Assembly: GCA_947490615.1 (NCBI GenBank)
Contig: CANLHK010000003.1
Coordinates: 186,001 to 250,000 of the forward strand
From: Planctomycetaceae bacterium
Lineage (GTDB): Bacteria > Planctomycetota > Phycisphaerae > Phycisphaerales > SM1A02
Direction of reading: 5' to 3'
Length of the DNA stretch: 64,000 nucleotides
The notes under the pieces were generated by a model. The model searched no databases. It was not told the DNA's origin and worked only from the letters and a program-made list of their open reading frames with translations. This document shows, one piece after another, positions 53,063 to 60,159 of the stretch. Position 1 is the stretch's first letter. Each line of letters begins with the position of its first letter. The translations under genes and the position numbers were made by a program.

Positions 53063-53755
53063 ATGCGACAGCTGCTTCGTCTCGCGTGTGCCTTCTTCGT
53101 TCTCATCGCCATTGGTTGCGCCTCGGTGCAGCAGCAGGGTGCGGCGATCAAGCGTGAGGAGTCGATCGGTGCGTGGACGCTTACCGACGATGAGAATGTG
53201 ACCTTCGATGTGCAGCTCTCCCACAAGGGGACAGCGGTCAGCAACTGGTCGAAGGGTCCGCAAGGGGCACAGGGCGAGGTCGGGCGGTGGGAAGCGACGG
53301 GCAATCGCATCGACATTGACTACACCGACGGTTGGCGGGATTCAATCATCCGTGAGCCAAGTGGGAAGTACCGCAAGGAGTCCTTCGGCCCGCGTGCCGA
53401 TCGAAACGGGCCTCCGACGAACATCGGACAGGCAGTTCGGACTTCGGGTGCGATGACCGCGTGGATTGGAGTCTTCGAGGTTCCCGTCGCAGAGACTCGG
53501 CGAGGCAACTCGTTCTATGTCGCGATCCAGTCAAGCCATACGGCGTGGAAGTCGATCGATGACCTCCGCGTGGGAAGTTGGTGGATCGCGGGTGAGGCGC
53601 TGCGAATTCGCTGGGCCAACGGATGGCTCGATGAGCTGAAGCCCGTCAACGGCGGCATTCAGGTGCGTTCGTGGAAGCCCGGAACCACGCTCGATGGCGC
53701 TGGGAATCCAGTCGACGCGCCGACCAACACGGGTGGCGCGCGTCGCGTCGACTAG
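53063..53755 (+). CDS. Predicted lipoprotein of unknown function
   Basis: The 230-aa protein has a lipoprotein signal (RLACAFFVLIAIGCASVQQQ, lipid on Cys19) and a body with two related segments: WEATGNRIDIDYTDGWRDSI and WIAGEALRIRWANGWLDELK. The repeat of W-x(4-5)-R-I-x(2-4)-GW suggests an internally duplicated beta domain. I recognise no family. It lies between a DUF4236 gene and a GH13 gene, with enough space for its own promoter. Confidence 0.7.
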   Translation: MRQLLRLACAFFVLIAIGCASVQQQGAAIKREESIGAWTLTDDENVTFDVQLSHKGTAVSNWSKGPQGAQGEVGRWEATGNRIDIDYTDGWRDSIIREPSGKYRKESFGPRADRNGPPTNIGQAVRTSGAMTAWIGVFEVPVAETRRGNSFYVAIQSSHTAWKSIDDLRVGSWWIAGEALRIRWANGWLDELKPVNGGIQVRSWKPGTTLDGAGNPVDAPTNTGGARRVD

Positions 53756-53855: not shown

Positions 53856-55913
53856 ATGCGCACCACTCCGACTGTTCGATCCTTCTCGTGTCTCGCGGCG
53901 ATCGCGGCTGCGATCTTCACGAGCTTGGCCGTCGCGCAATCGGCTCGGCCAGGGATCGGCGCCACGCCGTACTTCGGCACTCCTGCGGGAACGACCTTCC
54001 GCGTCTGGGCTCCCACCGCCACGGCTGTGCGCGTCGCGGGCACCTTCAACGCTTGGAACATGACGAGTCATCCCTTGGTGAGCGATGGCGACGGCTACTG
54101 GTCGGGCGATGTGAACTTCGTCTATGCGGGCACGCAGTACAAGTTCGTTGTCACGGGTGCCGCGGGGACCAACTGGAAGAACGACGCGCGCGCGCGACAA
54201 GTCACGAGTTCGACGGGGAACTCGGTTGTGGTGAATCACGCTGCATATGTCTGGCAGACCAACGGCTTCCAAATCGCCGACTGGAACAAGCTCGTGATGT
54301 ATGAGCTCCACATCGGGACATTCGGTCAGACTCCCGATGGTGTGCTTCCCGCAAACTTTGACGAGGCGCGCACGAAGCTTGATCACCTCGCTGACCTCGG
54401 CGTGAACGCCGTGCAGGTCATGCCGATCTGCGAGTTTCCGCTGGGGATTTCCTGGGGCTACAACGCCTCGCATCCCTTCGCGATTGAAACGGCCTATGGC
54501 TCACCAACCGACTTCAAGGAGTTTGTTGACGCTGCGCACGCTCGCGGCATCGCGGTCCTGAGCGATCTCGTGTTCAGTCACTTCGGTCCCAACGATCTCG
54601 ACCTCTGGCAGTACGACGGTTGGAGTCAGAACGCAGGTGGCGGCATCTACTTCTTTCAGGATGCGCGCGCGGTGACGCCGTGGGGCAACACGCGTCCCGA
54701 CTACACGCGCAATGAGGTCCGCGGCTATCTGCGCGACAATGTGCTGGCGTGGCTCGACGACTATCGCCTCGATGGTCATCGCATGGACGGCACCAAGTAC
54801 ATCCGCAAGGTTGATCAGTTTGGCCCTGATATCCCCGAAGGTTGGTCGCTCTTGCAGTGGATCAACGACTCGGTGGACAGCGCGCATCCAGCGAAGATCT
54901 CCATCTGCGAGGACCTCGACAACAACGAGTGGCTGACCAAGACCACTGGCGCGGGCGGCGCTGGTTTCGACAGCCAATGGGACGCGCAGTTCTACTGGCC
55001 CGTGCGCAGCAACTTGATCACGCCCAACGATGGCGATCGCGACATGTTCGCGATTCGTGGCGCGATCCAAGCCGCGTACAACGGCGACGCGTTCGAGCGG
55101 ATCATCTACACCGAGAGTCACGATGAAGTCGCCAACGGTCAGTCGCGCATGCCCGAAGCGATCTGGCCAGGCAACGCGTCGAGTTGGTACTCCAAGAAAC
55201 GCTCCACGCTTGGCGCAGCAGTGGTGATGACTTCGGCAGGAATCCCCATGCTCTTTCAAGGGCAGGAGTTTCTCGAGGACGCGTGGTTCCAAGACACCGA
55301 TCCAGTTGATTGGAGTAAGGACACGACCTTCGCGGGCATCAAGGCGCTCTACAAGGATCTCATTGCGCTGCGGAAGAACGATGCGGGCCTGACCAACGGA
55401 CTCCTCGGGCAGAGCACGAATGTCTTCCATGTGAACAACAGCCTCAAGATGCTTGGCTTCCATCGTTGGATGAACGGTGGTGAGCGCGATGATGTCGTCG
55501 TGGTGATGAACTTCTCGACGACGCCGCGCACGGGCTATCGCGTGGGATTCCCGCGCGCAGGTCGATGGAAGGTGCGCTTCAACAGCGATTGGAATGGCTA
55601 CGACGGTTCGTATGCCAACACGGGGACCTTTGATCTCGACGCCACGACGGCGAGTCCGTGGGACGGGCTTCCTGCAAGCGGGACCTTTGACATCGGCGCC
55701 TACACCTGCGTGATCTTCTCGCAGGGCGATGCGCCGCCCGTGACCAACCCAGCGGATGTGAACAGCGATGGCTTCGTGAACGCCTCGGACCTCACGCTGC
55801 TCCTCGGATCATGGGGTGCTGCGAAGGGTCCTGCGGACATCAACCGTGACGGCAGTGTCAACGCCTCGGATCTTGCGTTGCTCCTCGCGGCGTGGGGTTG
55901 GAGCGCCCTGTAA
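53856..55913 (+). CDS. Secreted GH13 branching-enzyme-like protein with C-terminal dockerin repeats
   Basis: The 685-aa product has a signal peptide (SCLAAIAAAIFTSLAVAQSA), a CBM48-like domain (45-130, TFRVWAPTATAVRVAGTFNA) and a GH13 barrel. Seen: ELHIGTFGQTPDG, LADLGVNAVQVMPICEFPLG, GIAVLSDLVFSHFG, catalytic DYRLDGHRMDGT with Asp311, Glu352 in KISICEDLDNN, and YTESHDEVANG, as in glycogen branching enzymes. The barrel is followed by a C-terminal beta domain and two dockerin-like Ca-binding repeats (DVNSDGFVNASDLTLLLGSW, DINRDGSVNASDLALLLAAW). It is therefore extracellular and may act on starch or glycogen. Branching versus hydrolysis cannot be told by eye. Confidence 0.87.
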   Translation: MRTTPTVRSFSCLAAIAAAIFTSLAVAQSARPGIGATPYFGTPAGTTFRVWAPTATAVRVAGTFNAWNMTSHPLVSDGDGYWSGDVNFVYAGTQYKFVVTGAAGTNWKNDARARQVTSSTGNSVVVNHAAYVWQTNGFQIADWNKLVMYELHIGTFGQTPDGVLPANFDEARTKLDHLADLGVNAVQVMPICEFPLGISWGYNASHPFAIETAYGSPTDFKEFVDAAHARGIAVLSDLVFSHFGPNDLDLWQYDGWSQNAGGGIYFFQDARAVTPWGNTRPDYTRNEVRGYLRDNVLAWLDDYRLDGHRMDGTKYIRKVDQFGPDIPEGWSLLQWINDSVDSAHPAKISICEDLDNNEWLTKTTGAGGAGFDSQWDAQFYWPVRSNLITPNDGDRDMFAIRGAIQAAYNGDAFERIIYTESHDEVANGQSRMPEAIWPGNASSWYSKKRSTLGAAVVMTSAGIPMLFQGQEFLEDAWFQDTDPVDWSKDTTFAGIKALYKDLIALRKNDAGLTNGLLGQSTNVFHVNNSLKMLGFHRWMNGGERDDVVVVMNFSTTPRTGYRVGFPRAGRWKVRFNSDWNGYDGSYANTGTFDLDATTASPWDGLPASGTFDIGAYTCVIFSQGDAPPVTNPADVNSDGFVNASDLTLLLGSWGAAKGPADINRDGSVNASDLALLLAAWGWSAL

Positions 55914-56061: not shown

Positions 56062-57093
56062 ATGCGTTACCAAGCGATGTCCCTTGCCGTTGTCGGTGTT
56101 GCGAGCGTGGTTCATGCCCAAGGTGTGCTCGACGGAGTTGCCGAGAAGGGCTACGGCCCCCCGATTGCTGTGCAGAACACGCAAACGCAGTTTGGCGATT
56201 CGATCCTCGGGACGATTGATTATGCGGGCGGCTCCGAACTCGACGCGATCTACGCGCATGTCGCGGGCAGCATGCTGCACCTCGTGTTCACGGGAAACCT
56301 CGAATCGAACTTCAACAAGCTCGAGATCTTCCTCGACGGCGTCGAGGGCGGACAGAACCAGATTCGCTCTGACAATCCCGATGTCGACTTCAATGGCATC
56401 AACCGCATGGGTGATGACCCTGCGACCCTCAAGGTGGTCGAAGGACTGCTCTTTGACGCGGCGTTTTCGCCCGATCTGTGGGTGAGCCTCACCTGCGGCG
56501 GCACGCCATTCGGGGTCTACATGAACCAAGCGCAGTTGCTCACCCTCGGTGGCGGCACGGGTGGCTACCTCGGTACGGGCGGCGCTGGCGCGACGGGCGC
56601 CGTGACCTTCAAGAGCGGCTTTGGCTTCGGTCTCGACAACTCGAACATCGCGGGCGTCATTGGCGGCACCGATGTGGGTGACGGCATGGGTGTCCTCACT
56701 GGTATCGAGGTGCAGATTCCGTTGACCGCCATTCCTGGATATGTCTCGGGCGATGTCAAGCTCTGCGCCTTCATCAACGGCGGCGGGCACGACTACTGCT
56801 CAAACCAATTCCTGCCCGGTCTCGGTGGCGGACCCAATCTCGCCGACCCGCGCTTCGTGAACCTTGAGGCCGTGCCTGGCGAGCAGTTCGTGATGATCTC
56901 CATGGGTGGCGGCGGAGCGCCGTGCCCCGCGGACACGGACCACGATGGAACCGTCGGCTCCCCCGACCTTGCAGCCATGCTCAATGCGTGGGGTTCTGCG
57001 GACGCGGCGTATGACCTCGACGCCAACGGTTCCGTTGGCTCGGGAGATCTCGCGACCCTGCTGAACGCCTGGGGCGCCTGCCCAACGCCCTGA
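56062..57093 (+). CDS. Secreted protein with C-terminal dockerin-like repeats
   Basis: The 343-aa product starts with a short signal peptide (MRYQAMSLAVVGVASVVHAQ) and ends with two calcium-binding repeats: DTDHDGTVGSPDLAAMLNAW and DLDANGSVGSGDLATLLNAW. The middle is a beta-rich domain (AHVAGSMLHLVFTGNLESNF, KLEIFLDGVEGGQNQIRSDN) with a Gly-rich stretch; it looks like a family of Planctomycetota exported proteins for which I know no function. A strong terminator follows. Confidence 0.75.
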   Translation: MRYQAMSLAVVGVASVVHAQGVLDGVAEKGYGPPIAVQNTQTQFGDSILGTIDYAGGSELDAIYAHVAGSMLHLVFTGNLESNFNKLEIFLDGVEGGQNQIRSDNPDVDFNGINRMGDDPATLKVVEGLLFDAAFSPDLWVSLTCGGTPFGVYMNQAQLLTLGGGTGGYLGTGGAGATGAVTFKSGFGFGLDNSNIAGVIGGTDVGDGMGVLTGIEVQIPLTAIPGYVSGDVKLCAFINGGGHDYCSNQFLPGLGGGPNLADPRFVNLEAVPGEQFVMISMGGGGAPCPADTDHDGTVGSPDLAAMLNAWGSADAAYDLDANGSVGSGDLATLLNAWGACPTP

Positions 57094-57117: not shown

Positions 57118-57160
57118 ACACGGCCGCTTTCGCAAGGAAGCGGCCGTGTTGTTCTTTTCT
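57118..57160 (+). terminator. Rho-independent terminator after the dockerin protein gene
   Basis: A perfect 12-bp stem acacggccgctt / aagcggccgtgt with an 8-nt loop (57118-57149) is followed by tgTTCTTTTCT (57150-57160). It begins 24 nt after the stop. Confidence 0.92.
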
Positions 57161-57360
57161 GCATTTTCAAAGGACAGAACGCCGATGCCCGAACCGTCGG
57201 GACCCGCGGCTGTAGCACGGCCCAATCGGCGGATTTCGGCTTCCATTTTGGCTGCGATCGCGCACGATGCGAGGTCATTTCGAGTTTCATCGAGACCTTG
57301 GGGCTCGTCGCAGCCGCAGCTGCAAGAGTCAGTTCCTCACCCACACGGAGTGTTCAAGCG

Positions 57361-60159
57361 ATGGCATCTTTGATTCGTACCAGCATGGCGCTACTTCCTT
57401 CGATCACCGCAGCGGTTGCTTCAGCCGCGGCTGACCTTCCGCCGTTTGCGGAGGTGTCGAAGGACCACGAGCGCGTCGTGAGCACTGCCGATGGCAACTC
57501 GCTCTTCGGGCTCTATGTGAATCGCAAAGAAGAGCAGATGCTCGCCGAGCTCCCGCGCGGCTGGGACAAGATGAAGTTCCTCATCGCCGCGACTCCCGCG
57601 GGCGGCGTGATCTTCAGCGGTCTGCAGGGGCCTGAGAAGTATGTCTTCTGGCGCCAGTACGGCAATCGCCTCGCGCTGGTCTCGCCGCAACTGGATAAGC
57701 GCTCGACGGGTGAGCAGACTTCGAAGGATTCGGTGCGCCGAATCTTCACCGACACCGTCGTGCTCGAAGTGCCGATCGTTTCGACGGGACCAAACGGTCA
57801 GCCCGTCATCGACCTCGATGCGATGCTCGTTGGTCAGTCGCAGCAACTCGTTGGCGTCGGACTCAACGCTCGACTCGCGAAACTCGCCAAGACCAAGAGC
57901 TTCCCACAGAACCTTGAGATCGCCATCGAAGCGCCCGACCAAAGCGGTAACTTCAAGATGGTGCACTACTCGATCTCGGCGCTGCCCGAGAGCGGGAGCT
58001 ACAAGCCGCGTATCGCGGATGACCGCGTCGGCTACTTCCTCACGGGCTACGTTGATCTCGGCCTGTACGGCACCGAGACCAACGCCACGCGCAACATCAA
58101 CCGCTGGAATCTCGAGAAGCGCGACCCGAAGCTTTCGCTCTCGCCGCCGAAGGAACCGATCATCTACTACATCGAGCACACGGTTCCCGTGCGCTATCGC
58201 CGCTATGTGAAGGAAGGGATCCTCCAGTGGAACGACGCCTTCAAGCGCATCGGTATCGACAGCGCCATCGAGGTCTACCAGCAGGATGAAGTGACGGGCG
58301 CGCACATGGACAAGGATCCTGAGGATGTGCGCTTCAACTTCGTGCGCTGGCTGAACAACGATGTTGCCACCGCCATCGGGCCGAGCCGCGCGCACCCCAT
58401 CACTGGTCAGATCCTTGATGCGGACATCGTGCTCACCGACGGTTGGATTCGCGCCTTCTACAGCTGGTACGACGATCGTCCCATCGAGCAGGCCACGAGT
58501 CTCACCGCGGAGTCGTTGGTGTGGCTCGAGACGCACCCGCAGTGGGATCCGCGCATTCAGCTCTTGCCAGCGGCGCTGCGTCAGACCGAACTCGACGCCC
58601 GCGCCGAGCGACTTTCAGCTGGCGACACCGACGCTGCCGACAGCCGCAAGGATTCGGCCGTTGCAGCGAGTCCTGAACTCCGCGGCCTCTTGAAGTGGTA
58701 CCAGGAGTCGCGCGCTGGCGATCACGCCAGCTGTGGCTCGACCTGCGATGCCACCATGTGCTTTGCCGCACAAGGCATGGCCAGCGACATGGCGATTGCG
58801 AGCATGTACTTCGATGCGCTCGACCCCAACGCTCTTGCGTTGCAGGGCGGCGATCCGCCAAAGGATGGCGCGCCCAAGGTTGACACCCCCAAGGTCGACA
58901 CCCCCAAGGTCGAGACGCTCGACGGCGTGCCTGAGTCGTTCGCTGGTCCGCAACTCGCGCATCTTGTCGCGCACGAAGTCGGCCACACGCTTGGCCTGCG
59001 TCACAACTTCAAGAGCTCGTCGCTTTACACGCTCTCCGAGATCAACTCGGCGGAGATGAAGGGCAAGCCGCACGCGGGTTCGGTGATGGACTACATCGGC
59101 ACGAACTTCAATGTCGACAAGGAGCAAGTGCAGGGTGACTACTGCATGATCGGCATCGGTCCTTACGACCTGTGGGCGATCGAGTACGGCTACACCTTCG
59201 AGGATCCAGCCAAGGTCGCAGCGCGCGTTGGTGAGAAGGGCCATGCCTACCTCTCCGATGAAGACACGGGCGGACCTGATCCGTTGGCGCGGCGCTACGA
59301 CTTCACCAAGGATCCGATTGAGTTTGCGCGCGCCGAGATGGAACTCATCAAGCAACTCCGCGCGGTCATCCTCGAGAAGTATGTGAAGACCGGCGACAGC
59401 TGGGAGCGTGCGCGCAAGGGCTACCTCAAGACTCTCAGCAAGCAGCGCAAGTCGATTGACATGATGGCGCCGTGGATCGGCGGCACCCATGTGAACCGCG
59501 TGAAGAAGGGCGACGCGAACACGGGTGATCCACTGGTGCCCGTGGCCGTCGAACAGCAGCGCGCTGCCTTGGCGTTTGTCGTCGAGAACGCGTTCCGCGA
59601 CGAGGCTTTCGGTCTCACGCCCGAACTCGTGAACAAGATGACCGTCGAGAAGTGGGAGGACACTCCGTCATCGATGATGGCTTCGAGCACCTGGTCGATC
59701 AACGATGCCATCGCTGGCACGCAGTCGACGGCGCTTACGCTCGTGCTCAATCCAAGCACGCTCGGACGCGTCTACGACAACGAGCAGCGCGTGGCCGCTG
59801 GTGATCAGGCGCTCACACTGCCTGAAGTGATGAAGACCTTGAGCGATGAGATCTTCAAGGAGATCTCGCCGTCGGAACTCGGTTCGGACGACCCGCGCAA
59901 GCCCGTCGTGTCGAACTTCCGCCGCAATCTCCAAGCCGATTACGCCGATCGCCTCGTGGCCATCGCCACCGGCAAGGCTGGACTGCCGCGCGTCGCGCGT
60001 CAGCTCTCGGCGCAGGAGCTTCGCGGTCTCAAGGTGCGACTCGATGCCACGCTCGCGCGTGCTTCGGAGAGCAACTGCGATCCCTACACCCGCGCGCACT
60101 TCGCCGATCTTCAGGCGCGTTGCGACGCGGCCTTGGAAGCGACGATCACGCTCGACTGA
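57361..60159 (+). CDS. Large secreted zinc metalloprotease (DUF5117/DUF4953 type)
   Basis: The 932-aa product has a signal peptide (TSMALLPSITAAVASAAADL), a long N-terminal domain with an IFTDTVVLEVPIVSTGPNGQ segment and GYFLTGYVDLGLYGTETNAT, then a metzincin-like catalytic domain: IIYYIEHTVPVRYRRYVKEG, GILQWNDAFKRIGIDSAIEV, and the zinc motif HEVGHTLGLRHNFKSS near residues 538-553, with SVMDYIGTNF as the Met-turn. A Cys-rich insertion (SCGSTCDATMCF) and a PKVDT triplet linker lie just before the zinc motif. The C-terminal helical part has GGTHVNRVKKGDANTGDPLV. It is probably a periplasmic or outer-surface peptidase. The ATG at 57361 gives a clean signal peptide. Confidence 0.88.
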   Translation: MASLIRTSMALLPSITAAVASAAADLPPFAEVSKDHERVVSTADGNSLFGLYVNRKEEQMLAELPRGWDKMKFLIAATPAGGVIFSGLQGPEKYVFWRQYGNRLALVSPQLDKRSTGEQTSKDSVRRIFTDTVVLEVPIVSTGPNGQPVIDLDAMLVGQSQQLVGVGLNARLAKLAKTKSFPQNLEIAIEAPDQSGNFKMVHYSISALPESGSYKPRIADDRVGYFLTGYVDLGLYGTETNATRNINRWNLEKRDPKLSLSPPKEPIIYYIEHTVPVRYRRYVKEGILQWNDAFKRIGIDSAIEVYQQDEVTGAHMDKDPEDVRFNFVRWLNNDVATAIGPSRAHPITGQILDADIVLTDGWIRAFYSWYDDRPIEQATSLTAESLVWLETHPQWDPRIQLLPAALRQTELDARAERLSAGDTDAADSRKDSAVAASPELRGLLKWYQESRAGDHASCGSTCDATMCFAAQGMASDMAIASMYFDALDPNALALQGGDPPKDGAPKVDTPKVDTPKVETLDGVPESFAGPQLAHLVAHEVGHTLGLRHNFKSSSLYTLSEINSAEMKGKPHAGSVMDYIGTNFNVDKEQVQGDYCMIGIGPYDLWAIEYGYTFEDPAKVAARVGEKGHAYLSDEDTGGPDPLARRYDFTKDPIEFARAEMELIKQLRAVILEKYVKTGDSWERARKGYLKTLSKQRKSIDMMAPWIGGTHVNRVKKGDANTGDPLVPVAVEQQRAALAFVVENAFRDEAFGLTPELVNKMTVEKWEDTPSSMMASSTWSINDAIAGTQSTALTLVLNPSTLGRVYDNEQRVAAGDQALTLPEVMKTLSDEIFKEISPSELGSDDPRKPVVSNFRRNLQADYADRLVAIATGKAGLPRVARQLSAQELRGLKVRLDATLARASESNCDPYTRAHFADLQARCDAALEATITLD
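58873..58917 (+). repeat. Three tandem 15-bp repeats (PKVDT linker)
   Basis: The unit cccaaggtcgacacc occurs three times (58873-58887, 58888-58902, 58903-58917) with few changes, encoding PKVDT PKVDT PKVET in the metalloprotease. It is an in-frame linker within the catalytic region and a candidate for copy-number variation. Confidence 0.85.

Follow-up and report, generated by a model that had tools for sequence, protein, structure and literature searches.

Gene organization and domain architecture

The analyzed window, a stretch of 64,000 nucleotides from the genome of a planctomycete of probable freshwater origin, contains two neighboring genes on the forward strand, one encoding a GH13 enzyme with a C-terminal dockerin and the other a partner protein whose gene starts 148 bases downstream of the enzyme gene (Table 1). 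Open-reading-frame analysis yields a 685-residue frame from an ATG at 53856 to a stop codon at 55911-55913. A longer, in-frame start exists at 53694, but the start at 53856 is favored since the signal peptide begins directly after it. The N-terminus, MRTTPTVRSFSCLAAIAAAIFTSLAVAQ, has a basic start, a hydrophobic core and an A-V-A end, and is flagged by our own crude signal-peptide rule. Pfam detects CBM_48 (51.2 bits against a cut-off of 22.4), the Alpha-amylase domain (67.5 against 22), Alpha-amylase_C (51.7 against 21.2), for which a genome search at E ≤ 1 returned no second protein, and Dockerin_1 (PF00404; 35.6 against 22.9, E 1.1e-8). The motifs DGHRMDG and SHDEV carry D311 and D423, with E352 as third catalytic residue. 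Judged by its score and E value, the dockerin is more than a chance match; it fits type I, being above the PF00404 cut-off with two canonical calcium loops, while it stays under the GC-type cut-off (NF041540; 26.6 of 29 bits) and has no cysteine in the domain. Hence, a preliminary description of this gene as encoding a secreted enzyme with a signal peptide, both of these motifs and two C-terminal dockerin-like calcium repeats is borne out, as far as the signal peptide is concerned by eye and by the crude rule.

Table 1 Features of the enzyme gene and its partner gene (positions within the window)
Feature	Position	Strand	Basis
GH13 enzyme of 685 aa, probably secreted, dockerin at the C-terminus	53856..55913	+	Reading frame, Pfam
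Signal peptide, residues 1-28	53856..53939	+	By eye and crude rule
CBM48 domain, residues 35-110	53958..54185	+	Pfam
GH13 barrel, about residues 142-520	54279..55415	+	Pfam and predicted model; boundaries judged from model
D311, catalytic nucleophile	54786..54788	+	Alignment
E352, general acid/base; the adjoining D353 is acidic as in branching enzymes	54909..54914	+	Alignment
S421-H422-D423, third catalytic motif; Ser common to branching enzymes	55116..55124	+	Alignment
Alpha-amylase_C all-beta domain, residues 531-622	55446..55721	+	Pfam
Dockerin type I domain, residues 633-676, no cysteines	55752..55883	+	Pfam
Calcium loop 1 of enzyme dockerin, DVNSDGFVNASD, residues 634-645	55755..55790	+	Sequence
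Calcium loop 2 of enzyme dockerin, DINRDGSVNASD, residues 661-672	55836..55871	+	Sequence
Partner: signal peptide, CBM74-like beta-sandwich, cysteine-bearing dockerin	56062..57093	+	Pfam, NCBIfam, homologue search, predicted structure
Partner dockerin, residues 290-335	56929..57066	+	HMM scores under cut-offs; model match
Terminator-like hairpin after partner gene, 14-bp stem	57118..57149	+	Three terminator-like sites in region, 3.1 expected by shuffling

In folding, the intergenic region does not surpass its shuffled versions. Behind the pair, here as well as in near relatives, follows a gene for a 953-residue zinc metalloprotease-like protein (57298-60159; HEVGHTLGLRHNFK).

Affiliation of the enzyme within GH13

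Branching enzymes are normally cytoplasmic. The catalytic core had been likened to that of glycogen branching enzymes (GlgB), and of this claim the fold stands, while the membership does not. In the AlphaFold model of the enzyme (mean pLDDT 83), predicted structure and catalytic residues agree with GlgB (GH13_9): branching enzymes occupy its top 28 structural matches, with Z from 37.0 to 32.3, and matches to TreZ (32.2-30.2) follow, interleaved with more branching enzymes. With NCBIfam models, the enzyme scores between GlgB and TreZ, far under the cut-offs of each: the GlgB models TIGR01515, NF008967 and NF003811 give 211.8 of 463.95, 270.9 of 577 and 264.4 of 741 bits, and the TreZ model TIGR02402 gives 243.1 of 538.8. 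Alignment with E. coli GlgB, a planctomycete GlgB, GH13_8 and TreZ proteins revealed a motif set of the enzyme's family comprising YE[ML]HIGTF, DVVYNHxGPSD, DG-R-D, IAEDLxNN and YTESHDEVANG, with positions that differ among members. GH13_8 and GH13_9 serve here as subfamily names, each with its assigned motifs.

Two trees were calculated from hand-chosen rows, i.e. 34 family rows (32 of 93 non-redundant sequences plus L205 and L207), 10 GlgB of those to hand, all five GH13_8 and four of five TreZ proteins (L172, which has no catalytic letters, was excluded). In the first one (56 rows), the 34 family rows lie on one side of a branch with support 92/78. In the second one (60 rows; five alpha-amylase-type GH13 proteins from this and related genomes added and L208, a long branch, dropped), all 34 form their own clade (98/97), apart from amylases, debranchers, GlgB, GH13_8 and TreZ. 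The 10 GlgB rows constitute one clade (100/97) which is joined by GH13_8 at 100/99, whereas the family clade tentatively joins TreZ (94/76, not starred); due to long-branch warnings on both trees, the order among the GH13 groups is provisional.

Based on these data, membership in the known groups compared was rejected. An ordinary GlgB furnished with a signal peptide is ruled out by the cut-offs, motifs and trees; the enzyme shares with GlgB the CBM48-barrel-C order, the predicted fold, the catalytic residues and the SHDE motif, but is without the DWVPxHF, AEEST and PLSHDEVVHG forms, falls in its own clade and carries signal peptide and dockerin. From TreZ, with which it has the NHxGP region I and a comparable profile score in common, it differs by reaching less than half of the TIGR02402 cut-off, by the absence of QNHDQ and AESDLND, by its position outside the TreZ clade and by the lower Z of TreZ folds. 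The AED and ESHD residue choices are also those of GH13_8, the eukaryote-type branching enzymes, yet AEDMSGMP (AED-SGMP) and AESHDQALVGD (AESHDQ) are absent and GH13_8 forms a separate clade. Finally, placement among ordinary alpha-amylases was checked in the second tree, where the five amylase-type proteins form a clade apart (100/98). The enzyme thus appears, from sequence comparison, to belong to a GH13 clade to which none of the named families compared corresponds. No characterized clade member was found by PDB sequence search (best match GlgB, 170 bits), by NCBIfam or through two generic annotations, and a phrase search of the accessible literature found no paper on branching enzymes, of glycogen or in general, described as extracellular or secreted.

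Concerning the catalyzed reaction, Y202, D237, H242, R309, D311, E352, H422 and D423 are invariant in all 34 family rows. As most of them are common to all GH13 rows compared, they would mark an active enzyme rather than its type. Two other positions are more discriminating. Directly behind the acid/base Glu, an acidic residue stands in the family (34/34), GH13_9 (10/10) and GH13_8 (5/5), while TreZ has S or N instead (acidic in 0/4) and both debranchers have P. The residue before HD is Ser in 32 of 34 family rows, all 10 GH13_9 and all five GH13_8, but Asn in all four TreZ; across 93 family sequences, Ser occurs 83 times and Asn 10 times. These two residues and the fold ranking point to branching enzymes and speak against the alternative that the enzyme is a hydrolase, with a cut of the alpha-amylase or TreZ type. 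Nevertheless, this alternative has close to an even chance. Besides the TreZ-joining branch, it is favored by the TreZ score of 243 bits, which is near the 271, 264 and 212 bits of the three GlgB models, by the TreZ-like region I (DVVYNHxGPSD), by the presence in the same genome of genes for a pullulanase and an alpha-amylase, each with an apparent signal peptide, and by two named, plasmid-borne relatives annotated only as 'alpha-amylase family glycosyl hydrolase'. Since the clade is separate from GlgB and tentatively next to the hydrolase TreZ, branching cannot be assumed. Taking fold and the two residues on one side and the tree on the other, alpha-1,6-transfer and hydrolysis appear about equally likely.

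Distribution of the enzyme family

Matches to the enzyme at E ≤ 1e-30 were obtained in 35 of 61 relatives. As nine of these 35 matches are merely 30-35% identical, and the eight readable ones among them are GlgB or GH13_8, the family is carried by 26 of the 61. A pattern scan of one genome per species (84,980 species) gave 136 relatives, and the loci of the best 80 of them were taken further. The rows of the first tree carry the names of eight phyla, although several rows are metagenome bins with doubtful titles. Among 91 classified family sequences (6 of 97 were omitted, four as GlgB and two as cut off), a dockerin is present in 44, of which 37 have a signal peptide by the crude rule, which misses some plain signal peptides. 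The remaining 47 are without dockerin, 35 with and 12 without signal peptide by the same rule. Because of these 12, export is not part of the core job of the enzyme. Inspection by eye of the listed loci of such cytoplasmic-type relatives revealed no alpha-glucan context around the genes. In a Mastigocoleus bin (L129, 259-4814), an enzyme homologue without visible signal peptide adjoins genes that look phage-tail- or contractile-injection-like by eye.

The partner protein and its genomic association

The partner combines a beta-sandwich of about 260 residues, for which there is no Pfam match, with a dockerin whose HMM scores lie under the cut-offs (17.4 of 22.9 and 21.4 of 29 bits), while the predicted model of this region matches a solved dockerin with Z 9.9 over 59 residues. 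The model of the whole partner is of moderate quality (mean pLDDT 70). Its nearest structures are three entries of the CBM74 of Sas6 from Ruminococcus bromii (Z 12.4, 12.1 and 11.9; best match with rmsd 4.7 over 226 residues), the next carbohydrate module following at 8.9. Foldseek places a glucodextranase first (E 0.013) and Sas6 second (E 0.021, probability 0.57), both weakly, and gives no match at E ≤ 0.001. When the PDB was searched at E ≤ 10 with a sequence profile built from 15 modules, Sas6, the sole CBM74 compared, was not among the matches; the CBM74 likeness is therefore a fold-level lead only. CBM74 modules are almost exclusive to resistant-starch degraders, according to PMC10826348. 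The partner is a probable starch-binding protein.

The association of both genes is widely conserved. The partner occurs in 24 of 41 genomes searched, and in 19 of the 20 genomes holding both, enzyme and partner lie within 1.2 kb of each other, with the partner either downstream or upstream; in the twentieth (G051) they are 1.05 Mb apart and no GH13 match is found near the module. The partner also adjoins the enzyme in the Armatimonadota loci L136 and L137. In a Phycisphaerae bin (L146, 4767-7853), both are fused in one protein, with a further module copy behind. Enzyme and partner module are thus a gene-fusion pair, fused in this bin and adjacent in most relatives that hold both. Four genomes contain the module without an enzyme match. 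Three of these (G038, G039 and G049) have GH13 or GH13-like genes beside it, the neighbor in G039 being under the Pfam cut-off (19.4 of 22 bits). In G002, the module lies at a contig end. In the genome studied here, the sole other module copy at E ≤ 1e-5 lies inside the above-mentioned alpha-amylase with apparent signal peptide, which likewise ends in a dockerin (cut-off 22.9 bits; 23.1 when the genome was searched, 19.0 for the whole protein). A module copy of G003 is joined in frame to RCC1-like repeats; as in G051, the module is here not tied to GH13. The module stretch of G049 (L233, 7510-19263, contig C24) includes, by eye, genes for a LacI-type regulator, a GH13 and permease-like proteins, and one module there combines a dockerin-like stretch with a tail resembling PEP-CTERM.

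Dockerins, cohesins and possible surface attachment

The preliminary description had further proposed a calcium-dependent attachment and a search for cohesins in the genome. This search returned seven cohesin-like matches over the Pfam cut-off, one of them only together with its frame neighbors, which makes docking possible. On the other side, no cohesin match was obtained for 20 of the 35 dockerin-rich relatives, and in some other lineages PEP-CTERM replaces the dockerin of the partner module. The proposal hence stands in part, and cohesin docking in this species is possible. In its full form, it would mean that both dockerins plug into cohesins, with enzyme and binder as subunits of a planctosome- or amylosome-like complex on the organism's own cohesin adaptors, which we consider doubtful.

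Cohesin proteins encoded on contigs C19 and C14 combine a cohesin with HYR-type or dockerin-like stretches. A frame of 518 residues corresponds to an adaptor of planctosome type (HYR 33.4 and cohesin 27.9 bits, dockerin-like repeats by eye), and a lamin-tail anchor with cohesin was not among the seven proteins of this genome that were scanned. In the congener G015 (contig C36; L230, 1938-15636), anchor, adaptor and a dockerin-bearing, module-bearing alpha-amylase are found within 14 kb: the distance from the amylase gene is 2.5 kb to the cohesin-HYR-dockerin adaptor and 4.5 kb to a 2228-residue protein with lamin tail (LTD), three P-domain (P_proprotein) matches, TSP_3 and a cohesin match. This arrangement supports a docking of glucan enzymes to cohesins and fits the published planctosome model, whose adaptors and anchors were proposed for peptide degradation (Andrei et al. 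2019, PMC6461901); the words 'starch', 'glucan', 'amylase' and 'glycogen' are absent from the main text as available to us. Cohesin-HYR adaptors in the genome studied here and a lamin-tail/P-domain anchor with adaptor in the congener are thus shared with the planctosome, whereas the cargo would here be alpha-glucan enzymes.

Several observations weaken the docking explanation. When six of the cohesin proteins were rescanned whole (the 491-residue one of C19 was excluded), three were over the cut-off, one was just under it, and two gave nothing at E ≤ 0.01. Among 35 relatives with at least 20 GC-type dockerin matches, a cohesin match at E ≤ 1e-3 was found in 15 and none in 20, including G042 (two contigs) and G046 (one contig) with at least 81 dockerins each. 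Likewise, cohesin matches are present in 13 of 23 genomes with a dockerin-bearing enzyme and absent in 10 (the dockerin status of G010 was taken from L153, assumed to be the same bin). The module occurs in an amylase-length frame in six genomes (two of these frames were read), in one of the six on a cohesin-bearing contig. Some further details deserve mention. Among the L230 neighbors is a 259-residue dockerin-ended protein of cohesin-like look by eye, without a Pfam match. Cohesin proteins of L045 (6686-12098) and L047 (3537-6248) share a C-terminal VK[ED]LRRxGxGxL-like stretch before the last dockerin-like loop and end in Trp. The order-level relatives G037, G042, G046 and G050 each have at least 81 GC-type dockerins and no cohesin match at E ≤ 1e-3.

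Alternatively, the dockerin could be a general C-terminal sorting or anchoring tag, equivalent to PEP-CTERM and recognized by something else than cohesins of the Pfam type; we give this a chance a little short of even. The genome has 132 Dockerin_1 matches at E ≤ 1 (150 of 197 candidates scored), some of them several per protein and part of them under the cut-off, and the best 30, including that of the enzyme, all end at most nine residues from the stop codon. This position is less telling in so far as canonical dockerins, too, are often C-terminal. Nine of these 30 proteins were scanned and proved varied (RCC1, FG-GAP, plastocyanin-like, reprolysin, or nothing known), as would suit a general tag, and dockerin-rich genomes without cohesin matches exist, although PF00963 could miss divergent cohesins. 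Moreover, the partner of the Armatimonadota locus L136 has a PEP-CTERM tail in place of the dockerin (TIGR02595, 23.2 bits, cut-off 16), that of G039 has one at the limit of detection (TIGR02595, 16.2 against 16; Pfam, under the cut-off with 19.6 against 20.7), and similar tails were seen by eye in L137, G038 and G049. NCBIfam names a related domain 'GC-type dockerin domain-anchored', but the dockerin of the enzyme is without cysteines and misses that cut-off. The G049 module with a dockerin-like stretch and a PEP-CTERM-like tail together also counts against equivalence, as dockerin and PEP-CTERM may then do different jobs. All in all, the replacement by PEP-CTERM in some other lineages agrees with a general surface tag no less than with cohesin attachment, and the dockerin at the C-terminus probably serves to retain the proteins at the surface.

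Probable glucan processing at the cell surface

The domain architecture, the catalytic residues, the clade, the fold prediction, the conserved gene neighborhood and the one fusion are results of computation, whereas secretion, glucan binding, surface retention and the chemistry are inferred. In the explanation we prefer, and which we hold to be moderately probable, a secreted GH13 enzyme of branching-enzyme fold, from a clade apart from GlgB, would act outside the cell on an alpha-glucan such as starch or glycogen. The partner encoded by the next gene would most likely hold this glucan via its CBM74-like beta-sandwich, and calcium-binding, dockerin-type C-termini would keep both proteins at the cell surface. 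The substrate could then be captured, and its chains cut or rearranged, in one place. Extracellular glucan handling, as initially suggested for the enzyme, is thus likely, with backing from the neighboring partner gene.

It is improbable that the enzyme serves to make or restructure a branched alpha-glucan on the surface of the producing organism itself rather than to exploit starch from outside. Its branching-type residues, the probable surface retention and its standing as sole Alpha-amylase_C protein of the genome would agree with such a role. However, no secreted alpha-1,4-glucan synthase was found in a search for GT5, which gave two partial matches in one GT4-looking frame without visible signal peptide, and the partner module recurs beside amylase-type GH13 genes. 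The genome also encodes a 425-residue GH57 protein without visible signal peptide (G000:C15:12150-13028).

Sas6 itself ends in a dockerin. Returning to the preferred explanation of a surface-held enzyme and binder acting on external glucan, one of the closest known systems is the amylosome of R. bromii with Sas6, Sas20 and Amy enzymes, its organization being taken from PMC9112005. Alike are the dockerin-bearing GH13 enzymes alongside non-catalytic starch binders and the partner module, which is nearest in fold to the CBM74 of Sas6. In contrast, the present case concerns a planctomycete with a branching-type catalytic unit, enzyme and binder are encoded by neighboring genes, and cohesin binding is putative. 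Carried furthest, the comparison would give a planctomycete 'amylosome', in which an extracellular branching enzyme from a new clade of GH13 would be mounted on the cohesin scaffold of the planctosome together with a tagged amylase and a starch binder of CBM74 type, so as to capture and re-branch external alpha-glucan at the cell surface; this we regard as improbable.

What is new here is the adjacent, tagged partner beta-sandwich, nearest in fold to the starch-binding CBM74 of Sas6. If true, an exported and tagged clade of branching-enzyme fold together with a probable starch binder would add an unassigned GH13 group to be tested, and part of the numerous dockerins in these planctomycetes would gain a concrete substrate. 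As the same module bears a dockerin or a PEP-CTERM tail depending on the lineage, it would also afford a clean test of what planctomycete dockerins do.
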